Assembly (NCBI RefSeq): GCF_000003815.2
Contig: NC_049987.1
Coordinates: 7,510,114 to 7,574,113, forward strand
Direction of reading: 5' to 3'
Length of the DNA: 64,000 bases
From: Branchiostoma floridae
Taxonomy: Eukaryota; Chordata; Leptocardii; Amphioxiformes; Branchiostomatidae
Shown: piece by piece, positions 27,780 to 56,300 of the stretch
Numbering within the stretch: position 1 is the first letter of the stretch
Layout of the letters: the number at the start of each line of letters is the position of its first letter
Position numbers and translations under genes: made by a program
The notes under the pieces: model-generated
Told to the model about the DNA's origin: nothing
Databases searched by the model: none
Seen by the model: only the letters and a program-made list of their open reading frames with translations

Positions 27780-29184
27780 TCGTTGAGCAACATCATCGGT
27801 CATATATGTGATCTCTCTGTGGCGGTAGTCTTCAGCGAAGGTATTTAGTATGTTTCTGGTCTTACAGTTGTGCTGACGACCGCCGACACCGTGACCCTGC
27901 CATGACGTGACACCCCAAGCTAAACCGTCTGCAAAACGCACAAGAACTCATTCTTCATCCATAAAATTTGTTGAGTAACGTGTCAAATATTTGATCTCTC
28001 TGTGGCAGTAGCCTTGAGCGAAAATGAAGTGGGTATTTAGTATGTTTCTGGTCTTACAGTTGTGCTGACAACCTGCTTCGGCCATGACGTAGCGCCCCCG
28101 GCTAGACCGCCTACAAAGCGCACAAAAACTCATTCTTTATCCATGAAATTCGTCAACTATTTGATCTCTCTATGGCAGTAGCCTTGAGCAAAAATGAAGG
28201 GGGTATTTAGAATGCTTCTGGTCTTACAGTTGTGCTAACGACCGCTGAGACCGTGTCCCCGCTACCATGACGTGACGTTCCCGGCTAGACCGTGTACAAC
28301 TTGAGCGCACACAAACTCATAATTAAAACATATGATAATGAAATTCGTTGAGCAACCTGTCATAAATTTGATCTCTCTGTGGCGGTAACCTTGAGCGAAA
28401 ATGAAGGGGTATTTAGAATGCTTCTGGTCTTACAGTTGTGCTAACGACCGCCGACGCCGACACCATGACGTGACACCCCCGGCTAGACTGTCTACAAAGC
28501 GCACAAGAACTCATTCTTTATCCATGAAATTTGTTGAGTGACCTGTAAAATATTTGGCGGTAGCCTTGAGCGAAGGTGAAGTTGGGTATTTAGTATGTTT
28601 CTGGTCTTACAGTTGTCCTGACGACCGCCGACACCATGCCCCTGCCATTGCGCGGCCCCCGGTTAGACCGTCTACAACTTGTGCGCACAAAAACTCATTC
28701 TTTATCTATAATTTTCGTTGAGTGACCTGTCATATATTTCATCACTCTATGGCAGTATCCTTGAGCGAAAACGAAGGAGGTATTTAGTTTATTTCTGGTC
28801 TTTAATACAGGTGTGCTAACGACCGCCGACACCGTACCCCGCCGCCATTACGTGACGCGGCCCCCGGTTAGACCGTCTACAAAGTGTGCAAGAACGTATT
28901 CTTTATCCATGAAATTCGTTCAGCGACCTGTCAAATATTTGGTCACAATGCCGCTGTGGCCTTGAGCAAAATGAAGGGGGTATCTAGTAATCTCCAAGCA
29001 GATCCTACAGTGCCATAAGATAGTATCAAAGTTGGCCAAGGAGTATAGCCGGCCAAAGGGAGTCAAACGGGCATCGGTCGCATAAACACTCCCAGGCCGA
29101 CTTCACTCCACTGCCAGCTTTTAATACCATCTTATGCTACCGTATGCTTGGAGATAAGTATTTAGAATGTTTCTGGTCTTACAG
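27780..29184 (+). repeat. Tandem array repeating the MCT 5' UTR splice acceptor
   Basis: Seven units of about 170-206 bases. Each contains a 'ttctggtcttacag'-type acceptor followed by 'ttgtgctgacgaccgccgac'. Acceptor AG positions: 27866-27867, 28058-28059, 28228-28229, 28434-28435, 28611-28612, 28809-28810 and the presumed functional one at 29183-29184. The last interval is longer (374 bases) because of an inserted MITE at 28991-29155. Five units also keep a tiny ATG-ACG-stop frame. Confidence 0.9.
28991..29155. mobile_element. MITE inserted in the MCT tandem array
   Basis: Ends 'tctccaagcagatcc' and 'gtatgcttggaga' are inverted, and the inner 'gccataagatagtat' / 'ataccatcttatgct' also pair. 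It is flanked by gtatctag and gtatttag, consistent with an 8-base target duplication. A similar terminus (tctccaagcaga) occurs near 34229 and 43871. Confidence 0.7.
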
Positions 29185-29258
29185 GTGTGTTAACGACCGG
29201 CGACACCGTGCCCCTGCCACCATGACGTAACACCCCCGGCTAGACCGTCCAGCCGACC
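29185..29258 (+). promoter_or_regulatory. MCT 5' UTR (acceptor exon leader) with minimal uORF
   Basis: The exon leader begins after the acceptor at 29183-29184. It contains an upstream ATG at 29222 in a perfect Kozak setting (gccaccATGa) that reads only Met-Thr-stop (29222-29230), ending 28 bases before the main ATG. Such a minimal uORF would be expected to reduce initiation at the main start. The upstream non-coding exon that donates to this acceptor was not identified. Confidence 0.6.
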
Positions 29259-32200
29259 ATGGTGGTGGTCGCCCCTGACGGCGGCTGGAGCTGGATGGTG
29301 CTGTTCGCCGGGCTGGGCGCCATGATCTGCACGGAGGGCATGGCCGATGCCGTCAGCGTGCTGGTGCCCGCCTGGCTGGACAAGTTTCAGAGCTCCCGGG
29401 GCAGCACGGCCTGGATAGGCTCACTGCTTTGTCTCAGGTTCATAGCAGGTATAAATGAATGAAGACCTTTATTGTACATACATACCCACTGGGTTCGGTA
29501 CAGGTCGCAACAAAAGATACAGTACATGGAATATATACAATGAAATATAGACAATGAATCTACAATCAATCCTATTCTACTTCGTGAATTCGACTTCTTC
29601 TCGTTTCTTTGTGATGTTGAAAATGTAGGACAGATATGGTTTATAAGTAAAGGTTTGTCTAAATTCATAAGGAATATAAATTTGTCTATTTCACCTAATT
29701 GTATGGTGGTATCTTTTATCTATGGTGGACTGCACTTGGGGCACCGGTGTGGCACTGCGGGGTTCGTTCGCTGCGGCACTGTTGTGTTGTTTTCGCCAAT
29801 TTTTCATAATTCACATATTGCGTAATACATGTACGTAAAAGTATGCCTTAAAATACAACTAAATACGCAAAACGTAAGAAAACTCGTTCTATATCTCTGA
29901 AATTCGTTGAGTAATCTTTCGAAGCCCGCAGTCATCCAAGTAGCGACAAACTGTGCTGTGTCATATCTCATACCAAGAATACGAAAATTACAAAACATTA
30001 TCTGGTATGAAAAAGAGAGATATGTCTAGGTGCCCTGCTTGCATTTAATTCATGGTCTTTGCAATACTCTATGGTCTAAAATGGTTTCTTTCATTATGCT
30101 GGACATAACGTTATATTCACCACACATGAATTGTTTTTTCACAGGTCCTTTCGGGGGTGTTCTGATTAAGAAGTTCGGATGTCGGAAGGTCGGCATGCTG
30201 GGCAGCCTGATGATGTCCGCGGGGATCGCCCTCAGTGCGTTTGGGACCAACGTGCCTTACATGTACTTCACATACGGGATTCTGGGAGGTAAGCTGAATC
30301 ATCTAGGAATGTCCCTGTATATGTAGTTCAACTGATAGCAGAATTGCACTTGAGCTCCTAGTAGGTATCCGGAGACCCTGGTTCAAAGCCTGGTATGGGC
30401 ATCTCGATTGGGACGCTGCACCTATCTTTTCGGAAGAGACGTAAATGGGGGTCAGTATTTGAGAAGATGCTAGTACGTTAAAGGGGAAGCAACTCATCCC
30501 TGTAAAAATATGCCTTGCTACTGCTGAAACAGCGAAATGAGTGTATTGCCTTGGAAAAAAATAAAGTGAAGTGAAGTAAAGTAAAGTGAAAGTGAAACTT
30601 GAACCAATGTACAACTAGACACTACAAGGTGAACACCAACAAGTTGAATGACCTGCTTATTGATTCAGTTAAAACTCAAGCAGAACTATACCATTACCAT
30701 TACATTCTAAACTAATACAGTCAATCACAACCATACTACACAATGCTTGCTAAAGAAATGCACCAACAGATTATCAGTAGAAATTGCGTCATGATACGTT
30801 CCAGTGTCTTCGATATATCTAACCACTTTTTCTCTCCCCCTCTTTCTCTATCAGGAACTGGCTGTGGCCTCCCTCTGCTAGCCGCAATCGTCAGCGTCGG
30901 TCAGTACTTTGACAAGAAACGTCACATTGCGTACGGCATCTCCGTCGCCGGTGTCGGGGTTGGCATCTCTCTCTTCTCCATGTTCCAACAGTTCCTCCTG
31001 GACGAGTTCGGCTGGTTCGGGACAGCTCTCATCATGGGCGCGGTCTTACTCAACAACTGCGTCTTCTGTGCAATCTTCCGCCCGCTCCCGGACATTCCCG
31101 AGGAAACCGAGAATAATGTGATAACCGAGAAAGCAGTAGAGGAGGCGATGAACTTGAAACAAGAAAAGGCAAGGTTGATCGATACACCAGATACTGGGGG
31201 CGACGGACTCCTACATGTGCCGATAACTGCTGAATATAGAGAGTTACGGTCCAGCAAAAGTAACTTGATGGCGTTCAAGGCGTTATCTAATGCCATGTAC
31301 CTGTCTCATGAAAGTCTAGTTAGCGGCAGGTCACGCCCGAACTCTGCGGCAACGTCCAGGTACCACTCCAGGGGCCCCTCTCGTGTGCAGTCCATGCACT
31401 CTCTCGCAAGTTGTCGACTCAACTCTCGCGTAGACATCAACGTGGTCCAAGAACCTCACGAAGACGCGCCGCGAGCAAAGAAGACATGGTTACAAAAGAT
31501 AAGACATTTAGGAACAACTATCCTTGAGACGCTGGAATGGGATCCTTCTCTCCTCACAAGTCCCATCGTTTTGGTTTTCCTCGTTGCAAACTTGTTGAAA
31601 AGTTTTGGAAACTTCGTGCCGTTGGTGGTATACGCGGACAAAGCCACGACAGAGGGTCTGACGTACGACCAAGCCACGTTGACCGTGTCCATGATGGGGT
31701 TTGCCGGCATTGTTGGGAGGTTATTTTTCCCGGCAGTGTGCAGCTTCTGTAAAGTCCGTTCCTTGTGGGTTTTCATGGTAGCCGTGGTGGTGACCGGGGT
31801 CCCGCTCCTGCTGCTGCTGGTCTGGAGAAGCTTCACGGCGTACTGCTTCTGCGGAGGTCTGTTCGGGGCCGGCCTCGGGGGAGCTGCCGCCGTCGTGCCG
31901 GCGCTGACCGTGGACCTGTTCGGTGTGGAGGAACTGCCCACCCTCTACGGGTTCGAGATGCTGATGGAGGGGGCAACAGGTCTCATCGCAGGGCCCATAG
32001 CAGGTAAATCAACCAATCAATCAATAGATCGATCGATTGAGTACGCCAGAATGTGCCAGCTGATAGTCTATCTGCAGACGCCCTTTTGTGCCAACTTGAG
32101 CTAGACACATTAGGCGCTAAATGCTGGGCTTCTGGAGTCCGCAAGACGCTAGAGGAATGTGGTTTTGGCTATGTCTGGCATTCTCCCATGTCATCTAAAT

Positions 32201-33362
32201 CCATCGCAAATAATTCCATCCATCGACCAACGCTTAAAAGATATGTACCTTCAATCTTTCATGACAGCAATGCGCAACAACAACAAATCACGAACATACA
32301 GATTACTTAAGGCTACTTACAACGACGAGAAATACTTAAAGATTGCAAACATTCGGCACAGAACAGCCATCACAAAGCTCCGCATTAGTTCACACAGACT
32401 CCACATTGAAAAAGGCCGACATAACCACATTCCTCCGGAAGAAAGAATCTGCCAATACTGTAACTTGAATAAGATAGAGGATGAGTGTCACTTTATTGTT
32501 GACTGTACTTTATACAACAACGAAAGAAACGTCCTTTTTGAAAATATACAACATATGTTTCCTAATTTCCGATTCTTGAATACCACGGAAAAATTCATAT
32601 TTCTCATGCAACTAGATAAACCATACATTATTGATTCCATCTGTCCTTATGTTTATAACTGTTTTAAGAAGCGAGAAGAAGTTGAACTTGTACATACTAG
32701 AATGTATTAGCATTATGTAGAGATGATAAGATACCCTTTTGTCAAAATTGAACCTTATCACTAGCGCTACGACCTGTACTTAGCTTGTTTGAGCACAAAT
32801 GTACAATAAAGGTCATTCATTCATTCATTCATTAATTGACTGATCTATCTGATACTGAAATATTAGATGATGAAACAGGTCTTCTTTCCATGAGTGGAAG
32901 CATTTATATCCTCATAATGCGTGAAATGATAGCCATTCTGCTGGCCAGTGGAGTCAGTAACAAACACTCCAGTGTGACTCTGACCAAACTCCGTGGTGTG
33001 CAGGTTTGGCAAGCAATTTAGAAGAATAAAATAATAACAAATGTTGTATACCCATCCTTACCCTATTCTTATAGACGCTTTTGTGGAGTTTGATCATGTT
33101 TGTTGTCACTGATAAATGAACAAACTATTCCCCTCTACCAGGTGCTCTATATGATGTGAGCGGTACATACGACTGGGGCTTCGGGCTGGCAGGCATAGCA
33201 CTCATCGTCGGCGGTCTGATGTTGTTCGCCATCCCGTGCCTGGAGAGGAAAACGGACGTACCTGTCATCGAACTTGAAGACATTGATGGCTACACACCCA
33301 AACTCGTCACCATACCTGAGGCTGAACCGGAAGTAGTCGAGGCCCAACTGACGTCAGTGTGA
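29259..33362 (+). CDS. Monocarboxylate transporter family protein (SLC16-type MFS), 4 coding exons
   Basis: Twelve-helix major-facilitator transporter of the SLC16 family, 567 aa, expected in the plasma membrane; substrate not predictable. Exons: 29259-29448, 30145-30288, 30855-32003, 33142-33362, all GT-AG with phase-1 junctions. Signature 1 is PDGGWSW (residues 6-12) at the start of TM1. Signature 2 is YFDKKRHIAYGISVAGVGVG (129-148) at TM5. A large Ser/Arg-rich cytosolic loop separates TM6 and TM7, as in the family. The C-terminal tail is acidic. The start ATG (gccgaccATGg) fits the family N terminus and lies 74 bases after an upstream acceptor. The last intron holds a LINE 3' fragment, and intron 1 begins with a LINE tail. 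It resembles the less-studied MCT9/12/14-type members as much as MCT1-4, so no number is given. Confidence 0.94.
29453..29690 (-). mobile_element. LINE 3' end beside the exon-1 donor of MCT
   Basis: On the minus strand it ends in 'acaataaaggtcttcattca', the tail shared by other LINE fragments here. It starts only about five bases after the splice donor at 29449. The remaining body has no intact frame. Confidence 0.6.
29800..29950. repeat. Second dispersed copy of the same repeat, in MCT intron 1
   Basis: About 150 bases matching 24220-24366, including 'aaattcgttgagtaatcttt'. Located in the intron after the first MCT coding exon. Confidence 0.6.
30338..30600 (+). mobile_element. SINE-like element in MCT intron 2
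   Basis: A box-B-like 'ggttcaaagcc' at about 30380 is preceded by a degraded box A, followed by a conserved body ('cggaagagacgtaaatgggg') and a tail of (aaagtga)-type repeats to 30600. The body recurs at 16420-16530. Confidence 0.6.
32085..32835 (+). mobile_element. 5'-truncated LINE with C-terminal ORF2 fragment
   Basis: An open frame to 32710 encodes the C-terminal part of a non-LTR retrotransposon ORF2, with ITKLRISSHRLHIEKGRH and a zinc-knuckle-like CQYCNLNKIEDECHFIVDC. An earlier part of the protein (CWASGVRKTLEECGF) is in another frame, so there is a frameshift near 32200. It ends in ACAATAAAGGTCATTC and a (ATTC)n tail at 32815-32835. It lies in the last MCT intron, same strand. Not active. 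Confidence 0.8.
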
Positions 33363-33737
33363 CCCCTGAAGATAAGACACGTTAAAAATAATTCTCACCT
33401 GTAAAGCCTTCAAGTATTGCCAGTCGTGGTAAAATCTATAGGAATAATGATGGCAATTCAATATTAGCTTACCTTTATCCGCGGAGTAATCTAATCATAC
33501 ATGATTCTTTGAAAACGGGGTATTTATGGGAATATTACGTCGACGGCCGGTAGTTGTAATATTTTCAAAACTATTGTGACACTGTCTTCTGTTGAGATGT
33601 TGTCCACAACCTCCCTACAAAAAGTGGAAGAAGAACAAGGAAAGACATATCGTGACTGGCGTTTGACTATAAAACATGACGTCGCGATATCTTTTTCGGC
33701 TTTAATATTATGTAATATTTTCGTTACTGCAAGGAGT

Positions 33738-33743
33738 AATAAA
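33738..33743 (+). terminator. Candidate MCT poly(A) signal
   Basis: AATAAA about 375 bases after the MCT stop. A MITE end (33468-33560) lies inside the putative 3' UTR. No clear GT-rich downstream element was seen, so the call is tentative. Confidence 0.4.
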
Positions 33744-33952
33744 CTATATAGTATAGCAAATTCCTCTGCCAGGTGAGGAATTCGGGTTTCCAAATATCAC
33801 AGTCCGTTACAACATTTAGATATCCGTGTTTGTGTCACAGTTTTATGAAGTCACTTTCGGATAATCTACCTCATCGTCGGTATAACAGGGTGATACTCTA
33901 ATTCCGGACAGACGGTCTAATTACGGAAACTGTTCTTAATTGTTTGAGAGGA

Positions 33953-34080
33953 ATGAATGAATGAATTTTATTGCTCAACAATCGCACAGGGTACAATTTA
34001 TGGCAACCAATAATAACTAATAGCTATACAGACAATAGTACTAAGAGGCTACATACAAAACAACAACAACAAAACATTAT
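33953..34080 (-). mobile_element. LINE 3' tail
   Basis: (GAATGAAT)n followed by 'tttattgctcaac' is the complement of the LINE tail seen at 32815-32835. No coding part is recognised. Confidence 0.5.
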
Positions 34081-34235
34081 CTATAACAGTACAGTTATGG
34101 GTGATTAATCTGGTCTCGCATTTGGAATACATTATAAAGAAACTGGCCTACGTAGACGGATATATGAGGTAAACATGAGAGCATGACCTGATAACCGAAG
34201 GTAAAGTGTCTCTTTGGACATGACTATTCTCCAAG

Positions 34236-34361
34236 CAGAGGTTGTGTCGCGGAGATATAGTAGTAGTCGGGAAATTTACCGGCGCGCTTCTATCAGGAGC
34301 GCCTCGGTAAATTTCCCGACTAGTACCTGACTACTGCAACATCTGTGCGACTCAACCTCTG
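34236..34361. repeat. Hairpin insertion inside the left terminal repeat
   Basis: A 126-base inverted repeat: 'cagaggttgtgtcgc' pairs with 'gcgactcaacctctg', and an inner perfect stem 'gtcgggaaatttaccg' pairs with its complement. It interrupts the left end of the 5.2-kb element between 'tattctccaag' and 'tagtcc', which are adjacent in the right end. Confidence 0.75.
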
Positions 34362-34499
34362 CTTTAGTCCAGCGGCATAGCTGAAAAATTGTGCAAATTT
34401 GTCTAAAAGCACCAAATTTGGCATACATGCAGTTGAATGTATTCTAAACAGAAATAGATATGGAGGCATCTCAAGTTCTGCCAAGAATTGATTTTATGG

Positions 34500-35450
34500 C
34501 ACTTTTTGGGCATTTTTAGACCAAAAATGTATATTTTGGGCTTTAGTGCCCTGGTATTACAACCTACTGATCTGAAATTCGGCACAGACGTGCATTGAAC
34601 ATATGCCCTCAGGATGTCATCAACACTTTTTGCATACGACACTTCAATAATGAGATATTTTGGGATATTTGGCTATTTTTGACTAAAAATGTATATTTTT
34701 GGCTCCTTTGTCCTTATATTAAAACCTATTGACCAAAAATTTGGTGTAGAGATGCATTGAACATATGCTCCCAGAATAGCATCAACACTTTTTTCATACA
34801 TCACTTCAAAAAAGTGCTATTTTGGGATTTTTGGCAATTTTTGACAAAAAATGCATATTTTGGGCTCCTATGCCCTTGTATTAGGACCAAATGACCTGAA
34901 ATTTGGTATGAAGGTAGTGTAGGCCAAGTGCGGACAGTATATCGGCTGTGTTGTGGCAAACATTGCTAAAATTGTTGAATTGGGGGATTTTTTGCTATTT
35001 TTAGACTAAAAATGTATATTATTGGCTCCTGTGCCTTTGTATGAAAACCAAATTCTGTGGCCAGGTTTTTAATCCAAATGACCTGAAATTTGGCATGGAC
35101 GTGCCTATAACATATGGTCACAGGAATGCATTCACGCTTTTTTGCATACTTTAAGTAAAAATGGTTGATATTGGGATTTTATGCCATTTTTAGACAAAAA
35201 TGTACATTTTTGGCTCCTGTTCCCTGGTAATTAGACCGAATGACTTGAAATTTGGTGTCGGAATGCCTTTTACATATATAAACAGGACTTAAATCATACC
35301 TTTTGCCTACACCACTTTATAATGGTTAATTTTGTGATTTTTTTGCCATTTTTAGACCAAAAATGTATATTTTGAGCTCCTGTGCCTTCGTATTTAAACC
35401 AAATGACCTGAAATTCAGTGTGGATGTAGCTATCACATTATGGATTAGAG
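34500..35450. repeat. Satellite array, six units of ~163 bp
   Basis: Recurring 'aaaaatgtatatttt' with 'tggctcctgtgcc' and 'gacctgaaatttgg' at about 34523, 34685, 34846, 35008, 35195 and 35359. Spacing is 161-187 bases. Units are diverged. Contained within the 5.2-kb element. Confidence 0.85.
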
Positions 35451-35639
35451 AGGAGAAACTTGAAAGAGTCCATTGAGTATGGGGGTATATTTGGAAGAGT
35501 CCATTGTTGCACGGAGGGTACAATTGGAAAAAAATTCAATGTCGGATTAATTGGGATGTTGGTATATAATTGTTCTTGGGCGGGTAAAATAATACGAGAA
35601 AACATACAACTCACACAAAACGAGGCTACAAATCAGACA

Positions 35640-36170
35640 GTGCAGGAGGTATGGACACTACTTGGAGACCGGACAAAACGGGGGTACAGACACTACAGGG
35701 GTTACGGACACTCCAGGCGGAATGGACACTACAGAATAGCATTACAGGGGGTACGGACACTACTGGGGTACAGATTAGACACTAAAGGGGATAAGGACAC
35801 TACAGGGGTACACATCAGACACTACAGGGGCTAAGGGCACTACTGGGGGAACGGACACTACAGAATTAATAGGCATTACAGGGGGTACGGACATTGCTGG
35901 GGTCAGGATTGGACACTAAGGGGGATAAGGGTACAGATCAGACACCGCAGGGGGTACGGGCACTACTGGGGGTACAGATCAGACACTACAGGGGGTAGGG
36001 ACACTATAGAATGAATGAGCATTACAGGGGGTACGGACACTACTGAGGGTACAGATCAGACACTACTGTGGGTATATGGACACTACAGTGAGAACTAACA
36101 TTACTGGGGGTATTGACACTACTGTGGGGGTGTTGGCACTTAACTAGGGGTACAGACACTTCTTGGCAGT
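35640..36170 (+). repeat. Minisatellite with ~18-20 bp unit
   Basis: Many imperfect copies of 'gggggtacggacactact' and variants with 'agatcagacactacag'. Contained within the 5.2-kb element, after the satellite array. Confidence 0.85.
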
Positions 36171-37326
36171 AATGGGTATGGTACATCGTACCGGGAAAAA
36201 CGGGAAAAACTGACCTAAAACAATCAGTTGACAGGAGTTTGGACCAATGAGAAAATTAACTATTGACAGGCATCAACAATAACGAGTGACCGTAGGTAAC
36301 ATACTCGTGACGTAATTATGGTTTATGTAGGTTGTTTTCTGTGTGTTTGAGTGTCAATTATGATTTGACCAGTTATTTCCTATAGATTGAGTTTGTTTTA
36401 ACGAACCTGGCCTGTTTATGTGTGTATGATGTTCAGCGTTAGGGTTATGTTGGCTTGGCTGTGTGTTTTCTGTGGTGACCAGCAGGGCCAGGTTGTTTGT
36501 CTGTGTCTTTCACACTCGCTAAATCCTAGCCGAATAGTGCAAGCTATAAATTTTGCACAACTTTAGTGATGACGTTATTTTGTAACATTTATTAGATAGG
36601 AGTACATTTTTACCTAGGCGTCTTTCCTGCTAATTCATGAAAATCAATTGTCTCTCTTCACCTTCTGTCCTTGCGGTTTCCCTGTTACCGTAAGCCAGAC
36701 GACAAGCGAACACTTCATTGATGCTACAATATGGTCGCAAATGTCCTTACCTGCCCGAGGGTTTGTGAAGTCAAATTGCTGGCAGAGACAAAATCAGCAC
36801 AGTAACTACTGTCCCAATTCAATTCAATAATTCAAATCATTTTTGGTAGTGAAAGATTCCCAAAGTTGATGGTCTAAAGCACAATTTGGAGAAGGGCACA
36901 GATAGCTGACCAACCCTGATGTCAATTGAAAATGTGGACAAAACAATTCACATCATACTTGCCATCGTCTCCCTTGTAATTAAGCATTGCAGCGACGTGT
37001 CAGTTCGAAAAAAGTCATCTGCTCTTTGTATTTTAATGAGAAGAATCTCATACCTCAGTCCATAACTACGAAAGCCAATTGCTTATCTAGCTGCTACAAA
37101 GAAGACTGTTTTGTAAGATGCTGGCTAGCTGCGAGTGCAAGGAGCCCCGGTAGAAATCAGATGCGCACAGGCTTAAATCCTGGCTTATACTACTTGTAGC
37201 AAATGGAGCTTTGAGCTGTAAATGGCTAAAGACAACTGTTCAAAAGTAAAACATAGTGGACGCCTTTGTTCCTCTGTGAGGATGCCCTTATCAAACATCT
37301 TTTGTACTTGAATAATTATGTGACTA

Positions 37327-37490
37327 TTTTTTCACAGCCCTTGCTTTGTTTCTACTGACGTATTTCATCTGTAAGCAGCAACACCCATAGCTGCCGTACA
37401 CTGTGCACCAGTCAGAGTTGCCCTGAGGATGGTGTTGACGGTCACCGAAACGTCGGTAAAAACAAAACAAGGGTTGTGAAAAAAAAACGT
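37327..37490 (+). ncRNA. Hammerhead-ribozyme-like motif within a short inverted repeat
   Basis: The core CTGAGGA (37423-37429) fits the CUGANGA consensus, and GAAA follows at 37447-37450. Stem II is GGTG/CACC (37431-37434 with 37443-37446), stem I is TTGCC/GGTAA (37418-37422 with 37455-37459), stem III is the self-complementary ACGT and the cleavage triplet is GTC (37452-37454). This arrangement is known from Penelope-like retroelements. A single T between CTGAGGA and stem II departs from consensus. The region is flanked by inverted arms (37327-37355 and about 37457-37490). Activity is unproven. Confidence 0.45.
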
Positions 37491-39565
37491 AATCTTCATC
37501 CAGTGACGTACGCGTACCAACATGATGGAACTATTCACGGATCTTTTTTACTTCAGAAAGACTATTGTCTATCTCAGCACATCACTCTCAGACAATGGCT
37601 TTTGTTAGCAGCAGTAAGTTTAAGTTCTGACTTATTATGCCCCCCCTAAAACACATTGAGAATACTGATACGGCGATCATTATTCTTCTCTCCAGCAACA
37701 TTAACAAATCTTAACACAATCCACCGGGTGCGTTACCTCCAATGTGCTGAGGAGCATGGGAGGCTATGCGCCTTAGAAATGTCTAAACTTTCAAGAGATT
37801 AAAACTTTTAGTGGTTCAAGTAATCCCCTAGCATATCCTCTTAAATTCAATGTTTCATCCTCACTTTTTGGCCCGGAAAAGTAGGGAACCCATTCCTATG
37901 TTCAAATACAATGTTTAACCTTACGTTCGTGTCTTCATCAGAGTATCTTCATCAAATCTATGAGGGTAGCCATCGCAATTTCAGTAATTTTCAGTTTTAA
38001 TCATATGGCTGTTCAAAGTTTTACATACCTAACTGTTATCACACATACAAAGAATGACCCAATTTGACAGACCCCAACCTTCCGACCTTAGCATAGTTTG
38101 CTTGGTTTTCCTGTGCAATTCCATTTAGGCACCCATCTATACAAAAGTCAACAAGATACGTTTCTATCAGGATGACATGAGCAAATTTATGTGTCAGAGA
38201 ACCTGATCAAGAAAAGTACAAAAAATTGCATTCATCCCAGAATAGCCTTGTTCTTGACCTTTGTTATGGTCTTGTCTCTAGATATAAATTTTCAATATCC
38301 ATGACGTAATCCTGCATCCATGTGTCCTGGGTATTAATCAGTGTCACTTATGTGGAGTCCTGGTAACCCCCATGGAGAGCCTTATAACTGTGTAGGACAT
38401 ATATACTAGATATATGCAGTGATTTAGTAAGGTATCTACTAAATAAGCAAAAATAAAAATAAAAATGTGCAAAATCAACGTAATTCCTTTTCAGGTATCC
38501 TCATATCCCCCATGTAGAGCCCAAATTAACATTTCCAATTAATTATAATATTTTTCACAGTTATGCGTGATTTACAACATGACAGGAGCAAAATTACGTG
38601 TCAGAGAACTTGACTCTCTGCTGGTCTTTGCTTGAAACATGACTGAGTACCCCCTCAGCAACGGCCTTAGCAACGGTTTTGCTAATGATTCTGATAGAAA
38701 CAACGTATAAAAAACATATTTCTGCATCTGCTAAACGTTAAACATTTTTAGACTATTCCTTATACTTTTACAGTTGTATTCAGAGCAAAATACTGCAGAA
38801 AAGTTAATTCTGTGTATCAGTTTTGTTGTGGAGTACGATCTGAAACCTCCCTAGCAACAGCCTTAGCAACGGCCCTAGCAACGATATTGTCACTACAAGC
38901 TGGCAGATGTGTCATCCTTCACACATTCATATCTCCAGATTTCATTGACGAATTTCGACCATTTAAAGTTTGATATGCAGCGTATGATACCCACAGTAAG
39001 ACTAAATCATCAGGCAAGGCCCTATAGGTAATGCGAATAAATGCATGATATTGAAAAGTAAAGTATATATTTTTGATGAAAAAATCTCCAAAAAAATCCG
39101 ATTAGAGGACTAATAATTTTCTATCAAAGCTGAATATTGAAAAAGGAAACATATTTCGGTGGTTTTAGTGACTAGTTCTACCAACCTATGAATTTTAAAG
39201 AACAAACGACGATGTTTAGTTTTTTGCCCCTCCCCTTGAAAAAATCTCCAAAATGGGTATTCCATTTCCGGTGGCTCTAAATTCAAAGTGCTGTAAAAGT
39301 GCTCCTGGGCTGAAATTGAGATGCCTCCATATCTAGATTTGCTTAGAAGATGTTTGACTATGTGTGTGCCAAATTTGGTGCTTTTAGACAAAAGTGCACA
39401 ATTAGCCTGATTTTTTCAGCTATGCCGCCGGACTACTTGGAGAATAGAACATGACCAGTTCTGAAAGAATTCCGGAAATATCTTCTTCTTCTTTGTTGAC
39501 AGTGACACAACTCGTTACACGGGTCAGCCTAGGCAGCTCGCGCTTGTAACGGCTGACCAGCAATA

Positions 39566-39862
39566 ATGCCCACGGAGATACAGAGAATTCATTACAATAA
39601 ATAATTTCTGGAAAGTTCCCAAAATTCTAGAAGAATTAGATTGGTTATGTCGCTCGAAACACCAAATCGATACATGGACATACAAATGTATTCGTTACCA
39701 TGTCTCACGTCATAACGTTACCCACAGGCATCGACACATCTGGCCAGGTATACTTCCAAAAGATTTGCTTAAATTAGACTGTCCAGAACATCAGAATTAC
39801 CTGATACATACAGCAAATAATGTCATTCAAAGTTATCTCACAACATACGCCGAAATGCCATA
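39566..39862 (+). pseudogene. Decayed open frame, copy 1 (unknown family)
   Basis: An uninterrupted frame of about 98 codons without an ATG start, running from after a TAA at about 39563 to a TAG at 39862. It contains TINNFWKVPKILEELDW, HIWPGILPKDLLKLDCPEH and TANNVIQSYLTTYAEMP. The frame continues past the stop with CEKRKHGHFWYHKC. The second copy at 40712-40907 keeps the frame open at that point. Not recognised. Confidence 0.4.
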
Positions 39863-40711: not shown

Positions 40712-40907
40712 CAGCAAATAATGTCATTCGAAGTTACCTCACAACATACGCCGAAATGCCATATTGCGAAAAACGTAAACATGGTCATTTTTTTTGGTGC
40801 CACAAATGCATTCCAATACTATCTGCCTGGATACATCGGACCTTTATACAAATTAACCAGTCGTTTCAGGTTGTAACTCCCCAACTGATCAATATTCTCC
40901 AACCCGT
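40712..40907 (+). pseudogene. Second partial copy of the decayed frame
   Basis: A direct repeat of 39811-40000 that encodes TANNVIRSYLTTYAEMPYC, then EKRKHGHFFWCHKC, and continues openly. Relative to copy 1, the TAG reads TAT (Tyr) and there is a three-base, frame-keeping length difference, which suggests that the family once was protein-coding. The Cys/His spacing could form a zinc site. Confidence 0.4.
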
Positions 40908-40946
40908 GGCAAAGAGTGAGCCACTGCATCAGCCGCAACGCACCAT

Positions 40947-41155
40947 TCTGGCGAAACAGGGTATTTGTACAACAAGAAAGTGCAGTTTTAACTTGTCCTA
41001 TTCATCAACAGATAGGCAGAGTTAGATTTTTGATGTATCTTAATATCAGCTAAATATACAATTCTGGTGAAACAGGGTACTTTTTGTATCAAGTGAGTGC
41101 AGTTTAAATGTATTTGTCCGGATTCACGAACAGAGAGGGAGTGTAAGATTGTTGA
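40947..41155. repeat. Two-copy tandem repeat (~115 bp)
   Basis: 'ctggcgaaacagggtattt' to about 41036 recurs as 'ctggtgaaacagggtactt' from 41062, each followed by 'gtgcagttt'. Non-coding. Confidence 0.55.
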
Positions 41156-41624
41156 TGTAACTCATTAAGCATTTTTATTGACAATCCTTGTACAACTGTG
41201 CGCATCAAGTTCTTGGTAGTTTCTAACGGACTCCAGATAGAGGTTGCTGGGAAAAAAGCCGGATAACATGAGATATAATGTCCAAGAATGTCTATCAGTG
41301 TAGAGGCGCCGGCACTTCATCTAAAAGGCAAACCAGCTTCTAACTCCGGTAGCCAGTTGGTTGACCCTTGCCACCGATAGATGTGCTTGAAGATTATCAT
41401 AGGCCAGAGGAGTTGGGCGGCCTGTGAGTACAGTATGCGGCATGCAGTAGGGCAATTCCTGCTATTTTTCCAGTGATCTGTGTGAGTCTTGTAGGTTCTT
41501 GGCACACAATGCCTCTTTCTCTCAGGTCGTGTCACCAGTCATCTGTCATTTCTGACATGTATTCAGGTACATTCAGGTAAATTATGTATTTCAGCACCAC
41601 CTACTCTGTACAATCAGGCGGTAG

Positions 41625-42365: not shown

Positions 42366-42379
42366 TAAAGATATTCGTG

Positions 42380-45300: not shown

Positions 45301-45970
45301 GGAAGAATTATTGTAAAAAACAACATCCTGTTTGGTGACGACCAAGAGAAACACTTTTAAAATCACTATTTCATACCCTTTTCCACATTCCTTAACACTC
45401 CCATGCATAAGATCACCAAAGTATAAAACTACTTCACGTTTCCAGACCTGAAGGCATGGTACACATTTGCCATAGGGTTGATACTCTCATGTCTTCTCCA
45501 CCTCACTTCATGTTCAATCTGTCCGAGGTGTAAAAATCATTCAATATTTCGATGTAAAACCACAATTAGTGACATCTTGAACCTTGACCACCTTAGAGAT
45601 ACTCATACTTGGAGCTTGTTTTATCGCAAAACTGGTTTAATCCCATTCTTAAGGTGCCAATCAATAGTATGACTTGTAGGTCGTGTGCACTTGGAAGACA
45701 ACAACTACAACTAAGTTGCACGTACAGTTTGATTTTCAAGATCAATACAAATTCATCATGTTTATCACCAAATTTCATTGTTCACCTCAAAATAGAATGT
45801 TCTTTTATGAAAGCCCTAATAGGATGTAGTTGTTGTCTTCAATGTTAAAAATACACTACACTACCAGCAGACTAGCCCCCTGCTGTAGTGCTTGCACCTA
45901 TGTGTGGCCCCAGGGCTATGAAACGGAGATGGGTGCTGGGCCCACATCTCACTGATGTATGGGCAACTTT
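42380..45970. other. AT-rich region downstream of TRPA
   Basis: Probably partly TRPA 3' UTR. Minus-strand AATAAA candidates lie near 42737-42742 and 44680. It contains a poly-G run (43031-43047) and a 224-codon minus-strand open frame (43316-43990) with no recognisable similarity. A MITE-like terminus is at about 43871. Confidence 0.4.
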
Positions 45971-46063
45971 AGCTTCAATGTTGAACATCACAACACCTGA
46001 ACCCCGGTAACACCGAACCAGTCAATCTCTTTATTTCACCTTGTCTTCCTCGTACACTTTGAT
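45971..46063 (-). repeat. Tandem duplicate of the TRPA coding end
   Basis: Matches 46146-46236 with a 173-base offset and preserves EEDKVK plus the stop codon of TRPA. A more diverged partial unit appears at about 45772-45845. Confidence 0.7.
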
Positions 46064-46203
46064 AAGCATATTCAGCACCATATTTCAGTGCTCATCTCAA
46101 AATAGAATATTCTTTTTCGAAAGCTCTAAGGATGTAGTTGTTGTCTTCAATGTTTTACATCAGAACACCTGAACCCCTGGTAACACCGAACCAGTCCATC
46201 TCT

Positions 46204-47338
46204 TTATTTCACCTTGTCTTCCTCGTCCACTTTGAGCCCTGAATGGTCGACCAGTGCGTTGAGCAGCTCCTCCAGCCGGTCGTTCTGGTACTTCATGTTC
46301 TTGACTCGGTACCGAAGCTCGTTCACCACACCCATCAGTTCCTCCTGCTGCTCCTGGAGCTTCTCTATCTCAGTCTGACAACAGAAACAACAGCACAAGA
46401 GATTCATATGTCTGTTCGATTTTGGAGCTTTTCTATCTCAGTCTGACAACAGAAATGACAACAGAAATGATTCATATGTCCTTACGCTGTTGGAGTTTTC
46501 TATTTCAGTCTGACGACAGAAAAAGCAACACAAACAATCTATGTGTCCTTTTACACTTACTCAGAGTTTTTCTATCTCAGTCTGACAACAGAAACGGCAA
46601 CAGAAATGATTCATATGTCTACTTGCTCTTGGAGTTTTTCTATTTCAGTCTGACAACAGAAATGACAACAGAAACAGTTCATATATATATATATATATAT
46701 GTCCTTAAATCACTGTCCTTTTACTCTTGGAGTATTTCTATCTGGGTCTGACAACAGAAACGGCAACAGAAACAATTAATATGGTCTCAATAAAAGTACT
46801 CAAAGAAAAGGTGAACATTATTTTATCTTTTCAGAGCCATGCTCTTCTCAGTTTGACAACAGAAATGGCAACACAAACGATGGATATGTCCTTATGCTCT
46901 TGGAGTTTTTTTATCTCAGTCTGACAACAGAAACAATTAAATGGCAGAGACAGTTATCACAATGTGACACTATCATCTAAATTGTAGCCTGAAATCCATC
47001 CTGTTATAACTCTGTTCCTAGCTAAGGATACGCATACCACACATGCATACCAAACATACCCACAGAAATGATGAACTGTATTGTATCATGTCAGTGCTGA
47101 GTGCCTGTAAATGTCACGATAAATAACATACGATCATGTCACGATAAATAACATACAATACCTTCTCTGGGTTGAGTGCCTTTGCGATGGCTTGTGCAGA
47201 TGTTGCACTGTCGGAGAACAGCCAGGCCTTCAGGGCAGTGGTGTGGATGCCGTTGGGCCTCATCGTCTCCGACTTTCTCACAAACCTCTTACGGATGAAC
47301 TCCGGAAGGTTCTGTTCCACATCCAAGGTCAAGTCCAC
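46204..47338 (-). other. TRPA1: TRPA exons 22-23: C-terminal coiled coil
   Basis: Residues 1022-1136. The last exon is a heptad-rich helix (IEKLQEQQEELMGVVNELRY and following), matching the tetramer-forming coiled coil of TRPA1, and ends in EEDKVK. The stop codon overlaps an AATAAA (46203-46208). Confidence 0.85.
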
Positions 47339-50300
47339 CTGGGTAAGGGGTTAGAGAGTTATATTTCATTCTATTTCTTACTTGACCTTTAAAGTTCAAG
47401 GTCACACAGTGCTGGGATGTCCAAGGAAAGTGAACTGTGCTTCACTTTTTCTTTCTCCATTCAAACTTTCTATACAACTAATGGTTGGAATTTTGGTCTA
47501 TGGGCGAGATTTACAAATGTTCACAACTTACACTGAATCAGTTCTGTACCTAAGGCAAAAAGGATTAAAAATGTAATATAGTTTTATTTTTTTCATGTCA
47601 AAAATCACTCCCCCCCCATTAAAAGTACTTCTTTTGACTTGGGTCCAAAGCGTTTCTATTGCTCAACATTGCACTGATAATGTCAGTTTCCACAAAAAGC
47701 AGCCATAGAAATCACGGGTGGGTGAATCAAAGTACTCCGCAGACCTGCATGGCCAGTCTCTCCAACACAGCCTCCTCCTGCACACCTTTGATGTCATCTA
47801 CAGCCAGACCAACCTGTGCACAGAAAGGTTCAAGATTTCAGTCCCCAATTAAATCTTTATTTCATGATCACTTTACAACTTTTCTTTTTAATTTACCTTT
47901 GCAAATAGGGAAAATGAGGAACTCATATCTCTTGTAAAAGGAAAAATATGTTACAAACATAAGATTTACTACTAGTAGAAGACTAAGCGCAAACTTTCAT
48001 TGTACAGAAATTGTCTTTCAACAATATTCTGACATGAATAATTTTCAGATGAAGAGCCCATGACATCAGCTCAAAATACCAGACAGGCAGAGGTTAGGCT
48101 CTGGCTTCTTTTGGACATCTTGTTAGGTGTTTTTTTTCAGTCTTTCTACTTTGTCATTTTTCGTACATATATGCTGTCTAAAATAAGTCTAAAATAAACA
48201 GAAAAGACAAACTTACAAATTCCAATAGCTGGCAAAACACCTAAAAGATGTCCAAAACAAGTCAGAGTCTAAAACCTCTGCTAGGACTGCAGAATAGGAT
48301 GTTTTTGACAGGAAGCTCTTTATCAAAAAAGAAGGGGAGTTCTTATAAACAGACTTACCAAGAGGTTCATGATGATGATGGAACCAACGATCAAGAACAC
48401 CACAAAGATGATGTAGGTGACTGGTCCGTAGAACAGTTGATCTGAATACTCGGCTAAATCTCCTTTGTCTTCAAACGTGTGGAACATGGAGTCAAACTCA
48501 AACTCTCCGATCATCATCACTGCAGTCTTCACCAAGGAGACGTCCACAGTTCTGAATGAGAACTGCAGAGATGTGTGGAGAAGAAAAGGGTTGGAATATT
48601 GGATCAGAGAATGAGATTTTCTGTTTTAGATACATGTTTGCTGTATTATAAGACCCTAAAAACAAACATGTACAATGGTTCTGAAAAAAAAAATTCAAGA
48701 TAGAAATGATTTGCAAATCATACTTCATTTCCATTTGTATGTAACCATTGAGTTCTCAAATTCTTTCCAATCCTCTTTAAGTGGTGACTTTTAGTGAAAA
48801 AAAAGTGAGAATCATTTATCTTCACCTGATTGGAGACCAGTGCGTAGAAGCACAGCGCAAAAGCCACAACAAACAGGAAGAAAACCACAGCGAACTTGAG
48901 GAAGGTTGTCAGGATGTCGGTGAACATCACCACGTAGATGCCGAACCGCGGGAACTTGCGGATGAAGAGGATGAGGTCCATCCATGCCAGGAAGATGGCG
49001 ACAGCTCCGACCTCCCACTGCCAGTTCTGAGGAATTGGAGAGTTGCATCAATCAACTGTGCACCTTCAACCATATGTACACAGCACAAAGACCAGATTAA
49101 TTGAGTATCATTCCTCCAGTACAGTCAAGGATGTTAAGCCCCCTTCACACGAGAGTACGAATGAGCCGGAAATGGCCCGGAATGCCGTCAGAATCAATTT
49201 CTTTTTTATTCGTGGCAATTCCTTGCAATTCGTAGTGTGTTCTAACTGCATTCCAGCTAGTTGTGCCCGTTCTTTTGTTTAGCCTGAAAGTTTTTGACAT
49301 GTTAAAAACTGTCGAGGTGCATTCGAAGTGAAGAAATATCGAATGGCATTCATAGTGGATTCTAAGTGTATTCTAACTGCAGTCTGACCGCATTCCACCA
49401 CATTCCAACATTATTCGAATCATTCTTATCTCATTCGTTTGAGAACCGAAACAGCAAGCCACCTCGAATCCTCCCGAATGTGGCTGAATGAATATTTGGA
49501 ATGCAGTAAGAATACACTACGAATTTAAAAGATAGAAAAGAATTTTTTAATTTGACGGCATTCTGGCTCATTCCTTCTCGTGTGAAGAGGATTTAAGGCC
49601 CATTTGGAATTCCCACATGAATGGCCCCGAATGTGGCACAAATTTTGCAAATACTTCATTTCGGCTGGTTCTGCTTGATTCCTGCTGATTCGGTTTCAGT
49701 GTGAAGGCCCTATTACATATGCACCACCTGACTTTCTGGTGGTCCATAGATAATTTTGCCCACTATCACAGTCATTGAAAATCCTGTTTATGGCAACCAC
49801 CTGTCCATATTTGTGGACCATATTTGTTCCCCAAGTGTTCTTGGGCAGTGCTTATTGACTGTACAAAGGAGAAGTTGACGTTTGTTATACAAAGGATGGT
49901 GAAAATAACCAATTATCCAAGTTCAGCACATAAAGTAGGACATATCTTCAGTTAACATATTACATGTATTTCTGGTGTTTTCTTACCTCTTTCATGGGCT
50001 GAGTTGAGCTGATCCAGTCTTCTGCCTTCAGGTCGATGACGAACAGAACAGACAGCGTGTACAGCGTCCACTCCAGCAGGTTTTCTACTGTCAGGTAGTC
50101 TGACCGCTGAACGAACATCTGCACCACCTTTTGTAAACAGCAATCATAGGGCTGGTCAACATCCTTCCAATCCAAAGGTTACGAATACTGATCATTTTTT
50201 AGTTTTATGCAAAAGGAAAGGGTTTAGTCTGAAATTACAACTAAAACCTGATACACATTTGCAGAATTGATATGAAGCAAATACATGCACAAGTAGATAG

Positions 50301-53300
50301 TTTAACTGATGTGTAGATAGGTTGACTGAGTCATGGAAGCACAAAATGCGCTGGACACATTCATCTTAAAATTTGTGATGGAAATCCTGTGATAATTACT
50401 AAGACTAAAGGTAGAGTAAAAACAATTATGAACATGACCTATCATTAGCATGGATACACCAGAAAGCTACCTCTTTAATGATATGGAAGGCTGCCAAGCC
50501 CAATATAATGAACTTTCCGACGACAGTGAAGACCAAGATGACAGAGGTGTTGTTTGTTGACCATCTTTCCCAAGATGCCTGGGTTTCATTGTCAGCGGAA
50601 TCAACATACGGCGGTCGAACGGTGACCAGGTAGCCGGTGAGGAAGGTGAGGAAGAGGAGATAGAGGGCGAGGGAGAAGTAGTAGATGTATCGCCCATATT
50701 TGGTCCATTTGTGTCGCAGGAGGCTGGTGGACAGGGGGTGGGCCAGAAGGTGCTCTCGCTTGGAGATAACCTGGAACAAGTACATGTTTGTACAAGAAAA
50801 GCAATCAATACAAATAACAATCAGATGAATAAGAATTAGGTGTTAAATCATGCACAGTCAAACCTGTATACAATGTAGGTGACCACCTCTACATACATTG
50901 TAAGCTAAGGCCACGCCAATCGATTTCCTTGGTTTTCGGATTTTATAAATAAATGTAGCAAGCGGACATCATAAAAGCAAAGGGCAAGAAAACTGTGACT
51001 GTATTCACTCCATAAAACTGAGTGCACTAAGGCACAAAACTGGTCCTCTGGCATTGTTTTCATTATGTTTTTTCCAGTTAAGCATTTTTTTTCAAAATAT
51101 GAGAACCAACAAATTAAATTGGTATGGCCTAATCAAGGTAAAGGTAGTTCTATGGCCATCTGGGCAGTGGTTTGTTTTACACTGTGTCTAGAGCACAGTA
51201 TTGGGAGGTGGAGACCATCCCTCTCCATTCACTGCCGTCTACCTCTTCAACCAAAATCATTTTAAGCCCTTGGTGGAGTGAGGAAAGCAACTTTTCCTAG
51301 AGCACAGCATCAGCTGCATGTCAGGGGATTTGAACCCAGGACCTCTGGTTATGGGCTATAACCGTTATGCCAATGCAATGCCTGTACTATGTCTTACCAT
51401 TATCTGTAGAGGGTGGTTCTTCTTCAGCACATTGGAGTCAGTTGAGTATGCCTGCACCCCCTCCTTCACATAGTTCTCCTTGTCGTAGACCTCGTTGCTC
51501 TCACCACTCATGATTGACATCTTCTCGCTGTCGATGTCCTGAAGCCATGGTGCGTACATGTCATCCAGAAACTCGTAGTTGAAGGTGATCTGAAATAAAG
51601 TGTTGGTGAAAGAAATATTGGTGTGAAGACTTCATAACTAAGTCTCTATCTTACAATTTGAATGCAAAAGCAAGATCCGCTAGTCTGGGTACCATCCGGG
51701 AAGTAGTTCGCTCCTATTTTCGCTTTTGCTACCTGTCTGGCGGACTGTATATTAAAATCTTTTGGTCGTGACGTCAGTTAAAGAGCAAACTAAGAAATTA
51801 CTCTTGTGCGATGACAACAGGACCTCCTGCAAGCGGACGGACGGCATTTTGGGTGCTGGAACACCTGTTCAAATGGGCGCTTGAACCTGTTCCCGATGTT
51901 AACATGCATTGGCATAATACCGGTCATAAGCCTTATACCGGTCGATTAAAAAGAGTGGAACTTAAAGAGATCTACACATGCAACAATAGTTATTTCTGAG
52001 GTATGCACACTTCAGACATCTAGGTGTCCAATACATAATTTATAAAGCATCGATAACAATGCATTCGAAGACAACAAGGCCAAAAGTTTTCAGGTCATTT
52101 TCGGGGCAGGCGAGCTCGTCGTGGGACAAACACACTGTCACCTTCATCGCCAGATTTGTAGATAATAATCACATGTGCTCACGACACAAGACGAGCATGA
52201 TTCAACAGCAATCTTGAATTTCTTTTGGTGACCTACAACTCGTGTAAAAGTGTGAGGAACCGTTGCATTATCGCCCGGATCTACGGCTGAATGGGTCAAA
52301 TTGAACGTACGCCGCCATTTTCCCGCCATTTTTAATGCTACGGACAGGCGGGACAGCAGTAAAGTTTTACGTCATAGCGGTTGTGACGGACCAAAATTAA
52401 ATGAAAATTCTTGTCAGTATACGCCCATTTTCTCATGACTTTTTGTATGCTCATGCAGATTTTTGTTTTGTGCAACTACTAACAGGAAAGAAAGGAACAA
52501 CAGAGGATGTATAAAGGTACATAGCGGCAGTTAATTGTGCCGTGTTTCGTTCGACCGGTATATTGCACCCCCTTCCAACCACGCGCCCGTTCTCCGTGCA
52601 ATTCCGCGGTGTGTTCCAATTACGATATTATGTTTTTAGCAGGACCAGAGAGACAAAATAATTTACACAGAAGAAGTGGCAAAGGTAAGCTGTAACAGCA
52701 ACATGTAACTGGAGAAAATGATGCGTTGATCATTTGCCAAATTAGCATTGCTTGAGAAATTGCAGTAAACCGACCGGTATTATGCCAATGGATGTTAGCC
52801 ATGTCAAGACAGAATGGCAGAGAAGCGACTGCCCATAGTGTATAACAAAATTTGGAGCATGAAGCCGCTGTAGTGTATGATAAATGTCGGAGCAAACTAC
52901 TATCCAGATGGTACCAAGGCTACATTAGAGGAGCTATATTAGAGGAGCTAAACCAAGGGTAACATCTTGTACCTCATACTTCTTGTGTTCAGGATTCAGA
53001 CCATTGGATGTGGTACACTTGTTGAAGACGAGCTCAGCAACCGCTACACAGAGGGAAAGTCCAACATTTCAATTAATTAGCTGGAATAACTCACACATGT
53101 AGTTTTGTACAAATTTTGTACCTTACAATAATACCAGAGTCCTAGTAGAACAGACCTTATGACTGCAGTTACGGCTGTTATGACTTTAGAAGACAGAGAA
53201 TAACTCACATGGCATCTTCCGGATGAGTTTCCTCATGGGAGTGGTCGCCATCCCTGTTGCCAGATCAGTTGTTTTGTTTCGCATTGCCATCTCCCAGTTT

Positions 53301-56300
53301 TCATCATTGACAATCACTGCTGCCGTGTCCCTACAAACCATCATAAGTTGTTGCAACATCAGCTCTCATATTTGCACTGGGTTCCATAATACCACCAAAA
53401 AACCTTGCAATTTCTAAAGATTGTCTTGAATGCCTCAATACCTAAAGTGTATATATTAAGGACAACTGATGCTGCATTTGTACAGCTCTTTAATTCATTC
53501 CAAATTCTTCTCTCATGTGGCAATATTGAGGCATCTGGTGGAATTTTGTGAGTTGATGTTATCTGGTAGCTTAGTCTGTTTTCTTGTTTGTTACTGTAAC
53601 TCAAAGATGACTGAAAACTTTCATATAATCAATATCAAATGCTTTCTACACTTCTTTGTTTGGCCATTTTGGATACCGGTGAGCTGATTTATGTACATAC
53701 TTGTGGCCATTGTCTATGGCCAGGTCCAGACAGTTCAGACCAGCGTCGTTCTTGAGGGCGATGTTCGCGTTCCACTTCAGCAGGAGTTCCACCATCTCCA
53801 CGTGGCCGCGGGAGGACGCCAGGTGCAGCGGAGTAGTCTGTGTAGGATCACAAACACGTTAGACTGGATCATGGCTTAGAAATAACCATCAGTTAAACAT
53901 CAAGACTGCAGTTAGTCACCTTTCACAAAAAATCAACTGGTCAAGATCCTTCTTGAGGAATTAAGAAATTAGGAAGGCAGTGTGCTTAGGCCTTAGAAAA
54001 AAATGATGTGCTTCCGGTTTCCCAACCAAGCCTAACAAAAAAACTGCCGACCCTAGCTTTAGCCTTGTTTGGGTGGACTGTTTGCAAGGGAATTAACATT
54101 TTTATTTGACATCTAAGTGATGAGAATGCCTACCTACTTTCCCTATTTTTTCAGGACTGTGATTGGAAACACAACATTAGTTTTCATAGGCCTTGGCAAG
54201 ATTACAAGTTGTTCTACGAGATTACAAAATGTTAGTCAACTAGTCTACATGCCTTGGCCTTATCAGTAGGGTCCACAGGGGAGTCGTCATCTAGAAGGGC
54301 CATGGCAGTTTTGGTCCATCCCTCTGCTGCTGCACAGTCAAGCGGGGTCCAGCCATTGGTGTTTCTGTTAGGAGAGGGCACTGTTATATGTGAAGCCCAC
54401 TACAGCGTGTATTCCTCATGTTATATGTTACAGTCAACAGAGGGTTACATTATTTGTAAAACAGAGACAAGTATCATGTTGTTGGTGTTCCTGTTAGGAC
54501 AGGGCTCTGTTATACATGAAGGACACTACATCATGTACAAATATGACCCTTGTCATAGTCAACAGAAGGTGACATCATTTGTAGAACAGAGACAAATGTC
54601 ATTGGAGTTTCTATTAGGAGAGGGCACTACTGTGCATAATGCCCACTGCAACATTGTGTTGAAGCACAGACACAGTCAGCAACAAGACATAGAAACATGA
54701 ACAACTTGACACACCTACATAATTTTATCTACAGCAGGTTTCATTGTATGTCAGACAGAGACAAATCTTATGCCAGCTGACATTAACAGCTGTAAAATTC
54801 ACTATATACTGGGTCTTGAAGGGTCTTTAAGTTGACAAATGACTCCTTGGTAACTCCGGGATTAATGTCAGCACGAGTGGTTGTAATCCCTGGGCATAAT
54901 ATCCCTGGCCACGGTTTGCACAGAATTGAGGGGCTTTGCCCAGTATTGAATAGATGTAGATGTGTGAAAACTTGACTATATATACACACCTGGCCTCGAT
55001 GTTGGCACCTGCCTCCAGCAGCACCTGCACCACCTTGGTATGACCTGCGATGGAAGCCAGGTGCAGCGGTGTGCAGGAGTTCTCGTCCTCCCCGTTGATA
55101 ATGGTCTTGTCTCTCTTGACCAGTTCTCGAACCACCCTGACAGGGAGAAGTGGGGATACTTAGTATCTTGAGTTTTTTCTTAAATCTGTAGCTAAATAAA
55201 CTCAGAATAAAGGCATTGAACATGGTCTACAATGCATATAGCCTGAATATCATCCTGGTTAGTTTACTGGGGCTCCCATACTCCCCATACTTACTTTGTC
55301 CTGCCACTCTTAGCTGCAAGGTGAAGTGCCATCTGCTCTTCTTCATTCTTGGTATCAATGTATGCACCCTTGTCCAGCAAGGCCTGTAGAATGAACGTCA
55401 GAAAGAATCTCTATTAGATTTAAAAATTAAAAAAAATAGACTTAATTTTGGAGTAGTGTCGTAATTTGCTAAGTTGTAACTTAAGTTTATGTGTCGACAG
55501 AGCAGTATTCTGTATTGTACAAGTGTACTGTAGTATTCATTGTTGTTTAGTTACTTTGCACAGAGTCTTATATTATTAGTCTGTATAGACTGACTGACAG
55601 TAGTGGTGGGGTAAAGGAGGTGTTTACTGTGTTTAAAGTTCATGGTGGGCACACAGACTGTATCACTGAACAAATTACATGCCATAACATACCGGGTTTG
55701 TACTGAAGAGTACAAGCTGTTTATCTGTACAAATCTAATCACACCGGAATGGACCTCTACTCTTGTCAATAAGTGTGGTGGGTTCTTTAACATGCTCGAG
55801 GCATGTCTCTTCTCAAACATAGGACCTCCATTTAACATCCCCTCCAAGGGATGTTCCTAACCAAAGCTATGTTGGTCCTGATATCAGTACCTTCACACAT
55901 CCAAGGTACCCCTTCTCAGCTGAGATGTGCAGGGGGGTGTTGTCGTAGCGGTCGGACTCTTCCAACAGGGACTCTGCCAGGGGGTGGTCCAGTAATACCT
56001 GCAACAACAATAAAATGTTAAGTACTCAAAACATATATACATTCCTCTAAAGAGATCTACATGTTCACAAATCATCAGTGATGAGAGCTGGAATTTTCAT
56101 GAAAATGTTTCATATGATCATTGGGTTGTTTTGCACTGTATCTAGAACACGGTATTGCAAGGTAGAGGCCATCCCATTCCTTCAACCACCTTTTAACTTC
56201 CCAACCGAGGTCAGGTACCCATTTTTACACCAGGGTGGAGTGAGGAAAGTAGTTTTAAGTCTCTTTCTCAAGGTCACAACTTCTGGCCAGGAGTTGAACG

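Follow-up and report, generated by a model that had tools for sequence, protein, structure and literature searches.

Tandem repeats whose unit spans an intron/exon junction have been published in amphioxus genes under the name of mirages, at acceptors and donors alike (PMC3087553, PMC3902484; the literature is cited here from parts of each source). The globin genes BflGb6 and BflGb9 carry such repeats. In BflGb6 the unit comprises the 3′ end of the intron and the 5′ part of the exon, is 150–160 bp long and 81–100% identical between copies, and is present six or three times, depending on the haplotype (PMC3087553). Splicing of the published mirages was regular by reverse transcription PCR (RT-PCR), splice signals are retained in many of the copies, and a general phenomenon in cephalochordates was already suggested (PMC3087553). 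In lancelet PGBD5, the gene model of which is largely prediction-based, repeats occur at 5′ and 3′ splice sites and differ in copy number between assemblies; TnC is also cited there (PMC3902484). Further mirages, in amphioxus Adh3, have units of 10–72 bp and are reported to show somatic instability (Canestro 2002, as cited in PMC3087553), and intron gain through internal tandem duplication has been described (Rogers; Gao and Lynch 2009, as cited in PMC3087553). The tandem repeats of amphioxus huntingtin scaffolds are, in the part of the source used here, not placed at junctions (PMC2206037), and PMC4039745 deals with worm splicing. A genome-wide count of such repeats is named in none of the titles and abstract openings among the matches listed. 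The window considered here, 64,000 nucleotides of Branchiostoma floridae (GCF_000003815.2, NC_049987.1, positions 7,510,114 to 7,574,113, forward strand), contains three arrays of this kind: one in the leader of an MCT-like transporter gene (array 1) and two in a TRPA gene, at its last exon (array 2) and at an internal exon (array 3). As amphioxus mirages are in print, the phenomenon itself is not new, and the three arrays are additional mirages.

Three arrays that repeat an acceptor and the start of its exon

A first-pass annotation of this DNA had described three arrays with six, seven and two decoy acceptors, each unit spanning the acceptor and the beginning of the exon. These numbers were confirmed, and self-comparison of the window shows every array running past its acceptor and into the exon, over 65, 32 and 11 nt, respectively (Table 1). 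The junction-spanning minisatellites of amphioxus Adh introns that this annotation mentioned are, in substance, borne out by the published mirages. The tandem unit includes the intron/exon boundary in all three cases, that of array 1 being predicted from the sequence. That the arrays lie on the intron side holds by definition, as any copy that precedes the acceptor in use counts as intron. The arrays differ in unit, length and gene, which supports the separate origin that had been claimed for them. Over the compared stretches, units are 73–93% identical. Tandem Repeats Finder (TRF) lists arrays 1 and 2, and array 3 is absent from its list. The local alignment scores at the three array junctions (48.2, 41.9, and 32.9) stand apart from those of the other modelled junctions of the window (75 in four genes, 39 acceptors and 36 donors), the next-highest being 17.6 (TRPA donor 47162) and 11.6.

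Both TRPA acceptors (46374 and 54364) are secured by the open spliced reading frame. Use of any of the nine TRPA decoys would lead to an in-frame stop after 6–29 residues (46852 is counted here even though it lacks the AG); an uninterrupted protein therefore depends on the last acceptor. The mirage trait of an intact coding exon, with the extra copies within the intron, was found for TRPA as well as for MCT.

Table 1. Positions in the window of the arrays, the exons they enter, associated duplications and the modelled genes.
Feature	Positions	Strand	Remarks
Array 1, MCT leader	27745..29249	+	units ~170-206 bp; six decoy acceptors; by self-comparison
MCT exon	29185..29448	+	presumed leader acceptor 29185; ATG 29259; first 65 nt repeated in array 1
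Inverted-end stretch in last unit of array 1	28985..29160	.	16-nt arms, 28985-29000 and 29145-29160, 88%
Array 2, TRPA last exon	46343..46936	-	units 67-72 bp, two longer (98, 105); seven decoy acceptors
TRPA last exon	46204..46374	-	56 codons and stop; acceptor 46374; first 32 nt repeated in array 2
Duplication over TRPA stop codon	45973..46235	-	46145-46235 (last 32 nt of coding sequence and 3′ flank), 93% copy at shift 172
Further 90-nt pair near TRPA 3′ end	within 45757-46154	-	86%, shift 310
Array 3	54354..54654	-	units 120-126 bp; decoys 54490, 54610; real acceptor 54364
TRPA exon 11 of 22 modelled	54253..54364	-	acceptor 54364; GC donor 54253; first 11 nt repeated in array 3
TRPA	62318 to 46204	-	22 modelled exons, 1122 aa; start outside model
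MCT-like transporter	29185-33362	+	modelled, 567 aa
Ammonium transporter	14172-17733	+	modelled, 526 aa
Short-chain dehydrogenase	11215-6063	-	modelled; at least one exon missing

The exon-like starts of the array 1 decoys (27868, 28060, 28230, 28436, 28613, and 28811) are followed by 29185, which is presumed to be the real leader acceptor of MCT, within the 5′ untranslated region (UTR). Its acceptor score is above 99.8% of the AGs in the window, and the 65 repeated exon nucleotides belong to the 5′ UTR. The spacing of these sites is 192, 170, 206, 177, 198, and 374 bp, the last value being due to a stretch with inverted ends (28985–29160) that sits in the last unit and is probably an inserted element. 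It ends ∼25 nt upstream of the presumed acceptor and may supply or displace a branch point.

The decoys of array 2 lie at 46442, 46509, 46581, 46649, 46747, 46852, and 46920; that at 46852 carries AA where AG is expected. A further duplication covers the stop codon and marks an exon edge that is not a splice site, the last exon of TRPA thus being flanked by duplications on both sides. Array 3 belongs to an exon numbered 11 in the present model and 12 in the first-pass annotation, the apparent GC donor of which keeps the frame open. It is marginal by exon overlap, being missed when 12 nt are required and detected when 8 nt are.

Exon models for the four genes were obtained with a small gene finder and inspection by eye. 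The reading frame is open across every modelled junction of TRPA, MCT, and the ammonium transporter; in the dehydrogenase model no frame is open across the whole, and its seven acceptors and six donors are less secure. Pfam assigned ankyrin repeats and an ion channel domain to the spliced TRPA protein, MFS_1 to MCT, and Ammonium_transp to the ammonium transporter. A single TRPA exon matched only TRPA1 in the PDB; with the whole protein Ankyrin-1 was the best match (through the repeats), followed by TRPA1 chains. The transporter at 29185–33362 is presumably an MCT, as named in the first-pass annotation, and the gene at 11215–6063 is one that we take to be a short-chain dehydrogenase.

Other repeats were observed around these genes. 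A direct repeat of ∼25 bp (47110–47162, by eye) lies just inside the donor of TRPA intron 21, and a 115-nt pair, 92% identical and 953 bp apart, flanks the first modelled TRPA exon (61735–62802). A TRPA intron contains a long open frame (56716–57702, forward strand) that resembles, by eye, a fragment of a reverse transcriptase. Downstream of the MCT gene, at 34478–36128, are large diverged tandem arrays (TRF periods 162 and 18–134 bp). The near-tandem arrays at 34478–35438, 35615–36128, and 40942–41196 touch no modelled gene, although genes there may have been missed. A mir-2013 microRNA precursor is located at 1920–1999 on the reverse strand (Rfam RF03853, 75.5 bits). This microRNA is listed for sea urchin and also occurs in amphioxus, indirect evidence that makes an amphioxus source likely.

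Chance duplication or a preference for junctions

The simplest account of the arrays is local tandem duplication together with a survival filter. Such duplications would arise repeatedly in the genome, via slippage, unequal exchange or repair, and would fall at random, those copies that interrupt a coding exon being lost to selection. A copy would survive if it kept one exon whole, together with the acceptor of that exon, because the spliceosome would join the acceptor and the donor at the two ends of the complete exon and extra acceptors upstream would become intron; scarce donors in the decoy units would perhaps assist the choice of the correct acceptor. From two copies on, an array would expand and contract as any minisatellite and its units would drift, without the decoys requiring any function. 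The same reasoning predicts tolerance of duplications on the donor side, of which cases have been published, and RT-PCR reported for other genes agrees with whole-exon splicing (PMC3087553). Two observations in the window fit this account: local duplications were absent from 250 random exonic points at a score of 20, and the duplication over the TRPA stop codon spans an edge that is no splice site. The three arrays are probably amphioxus-type mirages in the sense of ordinary minisatellite-like tandem duplications that began by chance across an intron/exon junction.

The alternative proposed in the first-pass annotation, a mutational mechanism that favours duplication at junctions or acceptors, appears unlikely; base-composition steps and transcription-linked breakage are conceivable routes. 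Local duplications (score of at least 20, extending 8 nt or more to either side) were found at 3/39 acceptors and 0/36 donors, compared with 19 of 400 random intronic and none of 250 random exonic points. Neither acceptors (p = 0.43) nor all junctions together (3/75, p = 1.0) differed significantly from the intronic points, so that, within the window, the comparison by which the first-pass annotation had proposed to refute its mechanism did not show such arrays to be commoner at acceptors, and the mechanism was not demonstrated. An acceptor-specific bias over donors was likewise unsupported (p = 0.24), and donor cases are published (PMC3087553, PMC3902484). Lowering the cut-off to 16 gave 4/75 junctions, 26/400 intronic and 4/250 exonic points, and only then was donor 47162, a near miss, counted. 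Nine of the 19 intronic points fell into arrays 2 and 3, eight into dispersed pairs, and two (7349 and 7365) were artefacts of an N run at 7324–7423, where N had been scored as matching N; when these two were dropped, acceptors compared as 3/39 with 17/398 (p = 0.41). The control introns did not include the leader intron of array 1. Earlier controls from the whole window (600 points drawn, 599 used because one near N was dropped) had yielded 2/39 acceptors, 0/36 donors, and 61/599 points at the same score, under a 12-nt overlap rule that missed array 3.

Several observations weigh against an origin by chance. When only near-tandem copies were considered, 3/39 acceptors compared with 9/400 intronic points (p = 0.08), and outside arrays 2 and 3 none of the 400 random intronic points lay in a near-tandem duplication. 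Eight duplication groups touch gene spans (at least 40 nt aligned). Four are near-tandem, and every one of these extends over an exon edge, which is an acceptor in three cases and the end of a coding sequence in one; the remaining four consist of dispersed pairs, with a shift of at least 953, and cross none. All three intronic arrays found by self-comparison sit on acceptors. When units of 120 and 68 bp were placed randomly in TRPA, and one of 190 bp in the four genes, with the mRNA surviving, the probability that three of three fall on any junction was 0.019, and on acceptors 0.0023 (both post hoc, n = 3). That the phenomenon is general in cephalochordates had been proposed before (PMC3087553), which also favours a mechanism of this kind. 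Finally, and on a different count, the polypyrimidine tract and AG of array 2 rank second in conservation among 90 windows, for which a 12-bp subrepeat may account.

The near-tandem result depended on which junctions were included: it weakened without the predicted MCT leader (2/38 acceptors, p = 0.25) and for all junctions (3/75, p = 0.41), and it strengthened when the incomplete dehydrogenase model was removed (3/32 acceptors, p = 0.05, the donors then being 0/30). The arrays themselves prompted the testing. Moreover, at six sites small TRF repeats (up to 44 bp) lie wholly inside annotated introns of the same genes and cross no exon edge, which weakens the apparent excess at junctions. Taken as it is, the junction preference is a hint and no proof, coming from a post hoc analysis of three arrays, and a true bias of tandem duplication in this genome towards intron/exon junctions, acceptors most of all, is quite improbable.

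Decoy acceptors and their possible use

A role of the decoys as alternative acceptors or as competing sites by which splicing is tuned, so that array 2 would give rise to alternative C-termini of TRPA and array 1 to alternative 5′ UTRs, is less probable still. The decoys are well enough preserved for it: AG is kept in 14 of the 15, and their acceptor scores (1.2–3.8; generic splice-site matrices) lie in the range of the other real acceptors (median 2.75). In arrays 2 and 3 one decoy matches or exceeds the real site in score (3.81 versus 2.95 and 2.44 versus 2.41, respectively), and the conservation within array 2 would fit as well. Two of the three arrays, at a leader and at a last exon, occupy positions where use of a decoy costs least; transcripts truncated in the last exon should escape nonsense-mediated decay. 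However, array 3 sits at an internal exon, and the TRPA decoys, nine in number, would all bring in an early stop. The presumed real site of array 1 (4.6) exceeds all six decoys (2.4–2.8), and the acceptor segment of this array shows no special conservation, 41 of 188 windows being equally or more conserved (five of six units usable). Units had been cut between successive exon-like starts; the set of array 2 therefore ends with the real acceptor. Selection on decoy acceptors as a general rule was rejected in view of array 1, despite the rank reached in array 2. In the published work on other mirages, splicing was regular by RT-PCR (PMC3087553).

The use of decoy units as new exons was also rejected. 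A donor-like site above a score of 2 was present in 1 of the 15 units, which is a weak test, as no more than 22 of the 36 donors in the gene models reach this cut-off.

That the tandem copies are false, produced by collapsed or misjoined haplotypes of a highly polymorphic genome, is scarcely credible. Aberrant assembly in the draft did affect one of the published mirages (PMC3087553, Additional file 4 legend), and for another the number of copies depends on which of two assemblies is used (PMC3902484), but duplicated reads would yield neither units of 73–93% identity nor a separate inverted-end stretch in one unit of array 1. The copy number of the arrays in the assembly could nevertheless be wrong.

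Comparison with known junction-spanning repeats

Three mirages in 64 kb, two of them within one gene, are notable, and mirages may be common. Near-identical acceptors in an array are natural material for the question of how splicing picks one site. If a junction bias were true, decoy-acceptor arrays would occur genome-wide and provide a large natural test set for 3′ splice site choice. A published proposal derives new introns from such repeats, and the arrays provide raw material for it as well.

As far as the parts of the sources used here describe them, BflGb6 and the arrays of the window are alike in that the unit consists of the 3′ intron end and the 5′ exon part, that the copies lie on the intron side, and that many of them keep splice signals. 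The window arrays differ from BflGb6 in having more diverged units, of 67–105, 120–126, and ∼170–206 bp; the globin mirages concern other genes, are supported by RT-PCR and, in BflGb9, duplicate the 3′ boundary of an exon, that is, the donor side (PMC3087553). The Adh3 mirages are set apart by their shorter units (10–72 bp) and the reported somatic instability (Canestro 2002, as cited in PMC3087553), and the PGBD5 repeats by their description at both 5′ and 3′ splice sites (PMC3902484), whereas the window arrays are at acceptors. With intron gain through internal duplication (Rogers; Gao and Lynch 2009, as cited in PMC3087553) the arrays share that duplication brings splice signals into the interior of a gene; unlike there, the window shows no new intron, and just one of the 15 decoy units carries a donor-like site above 2.
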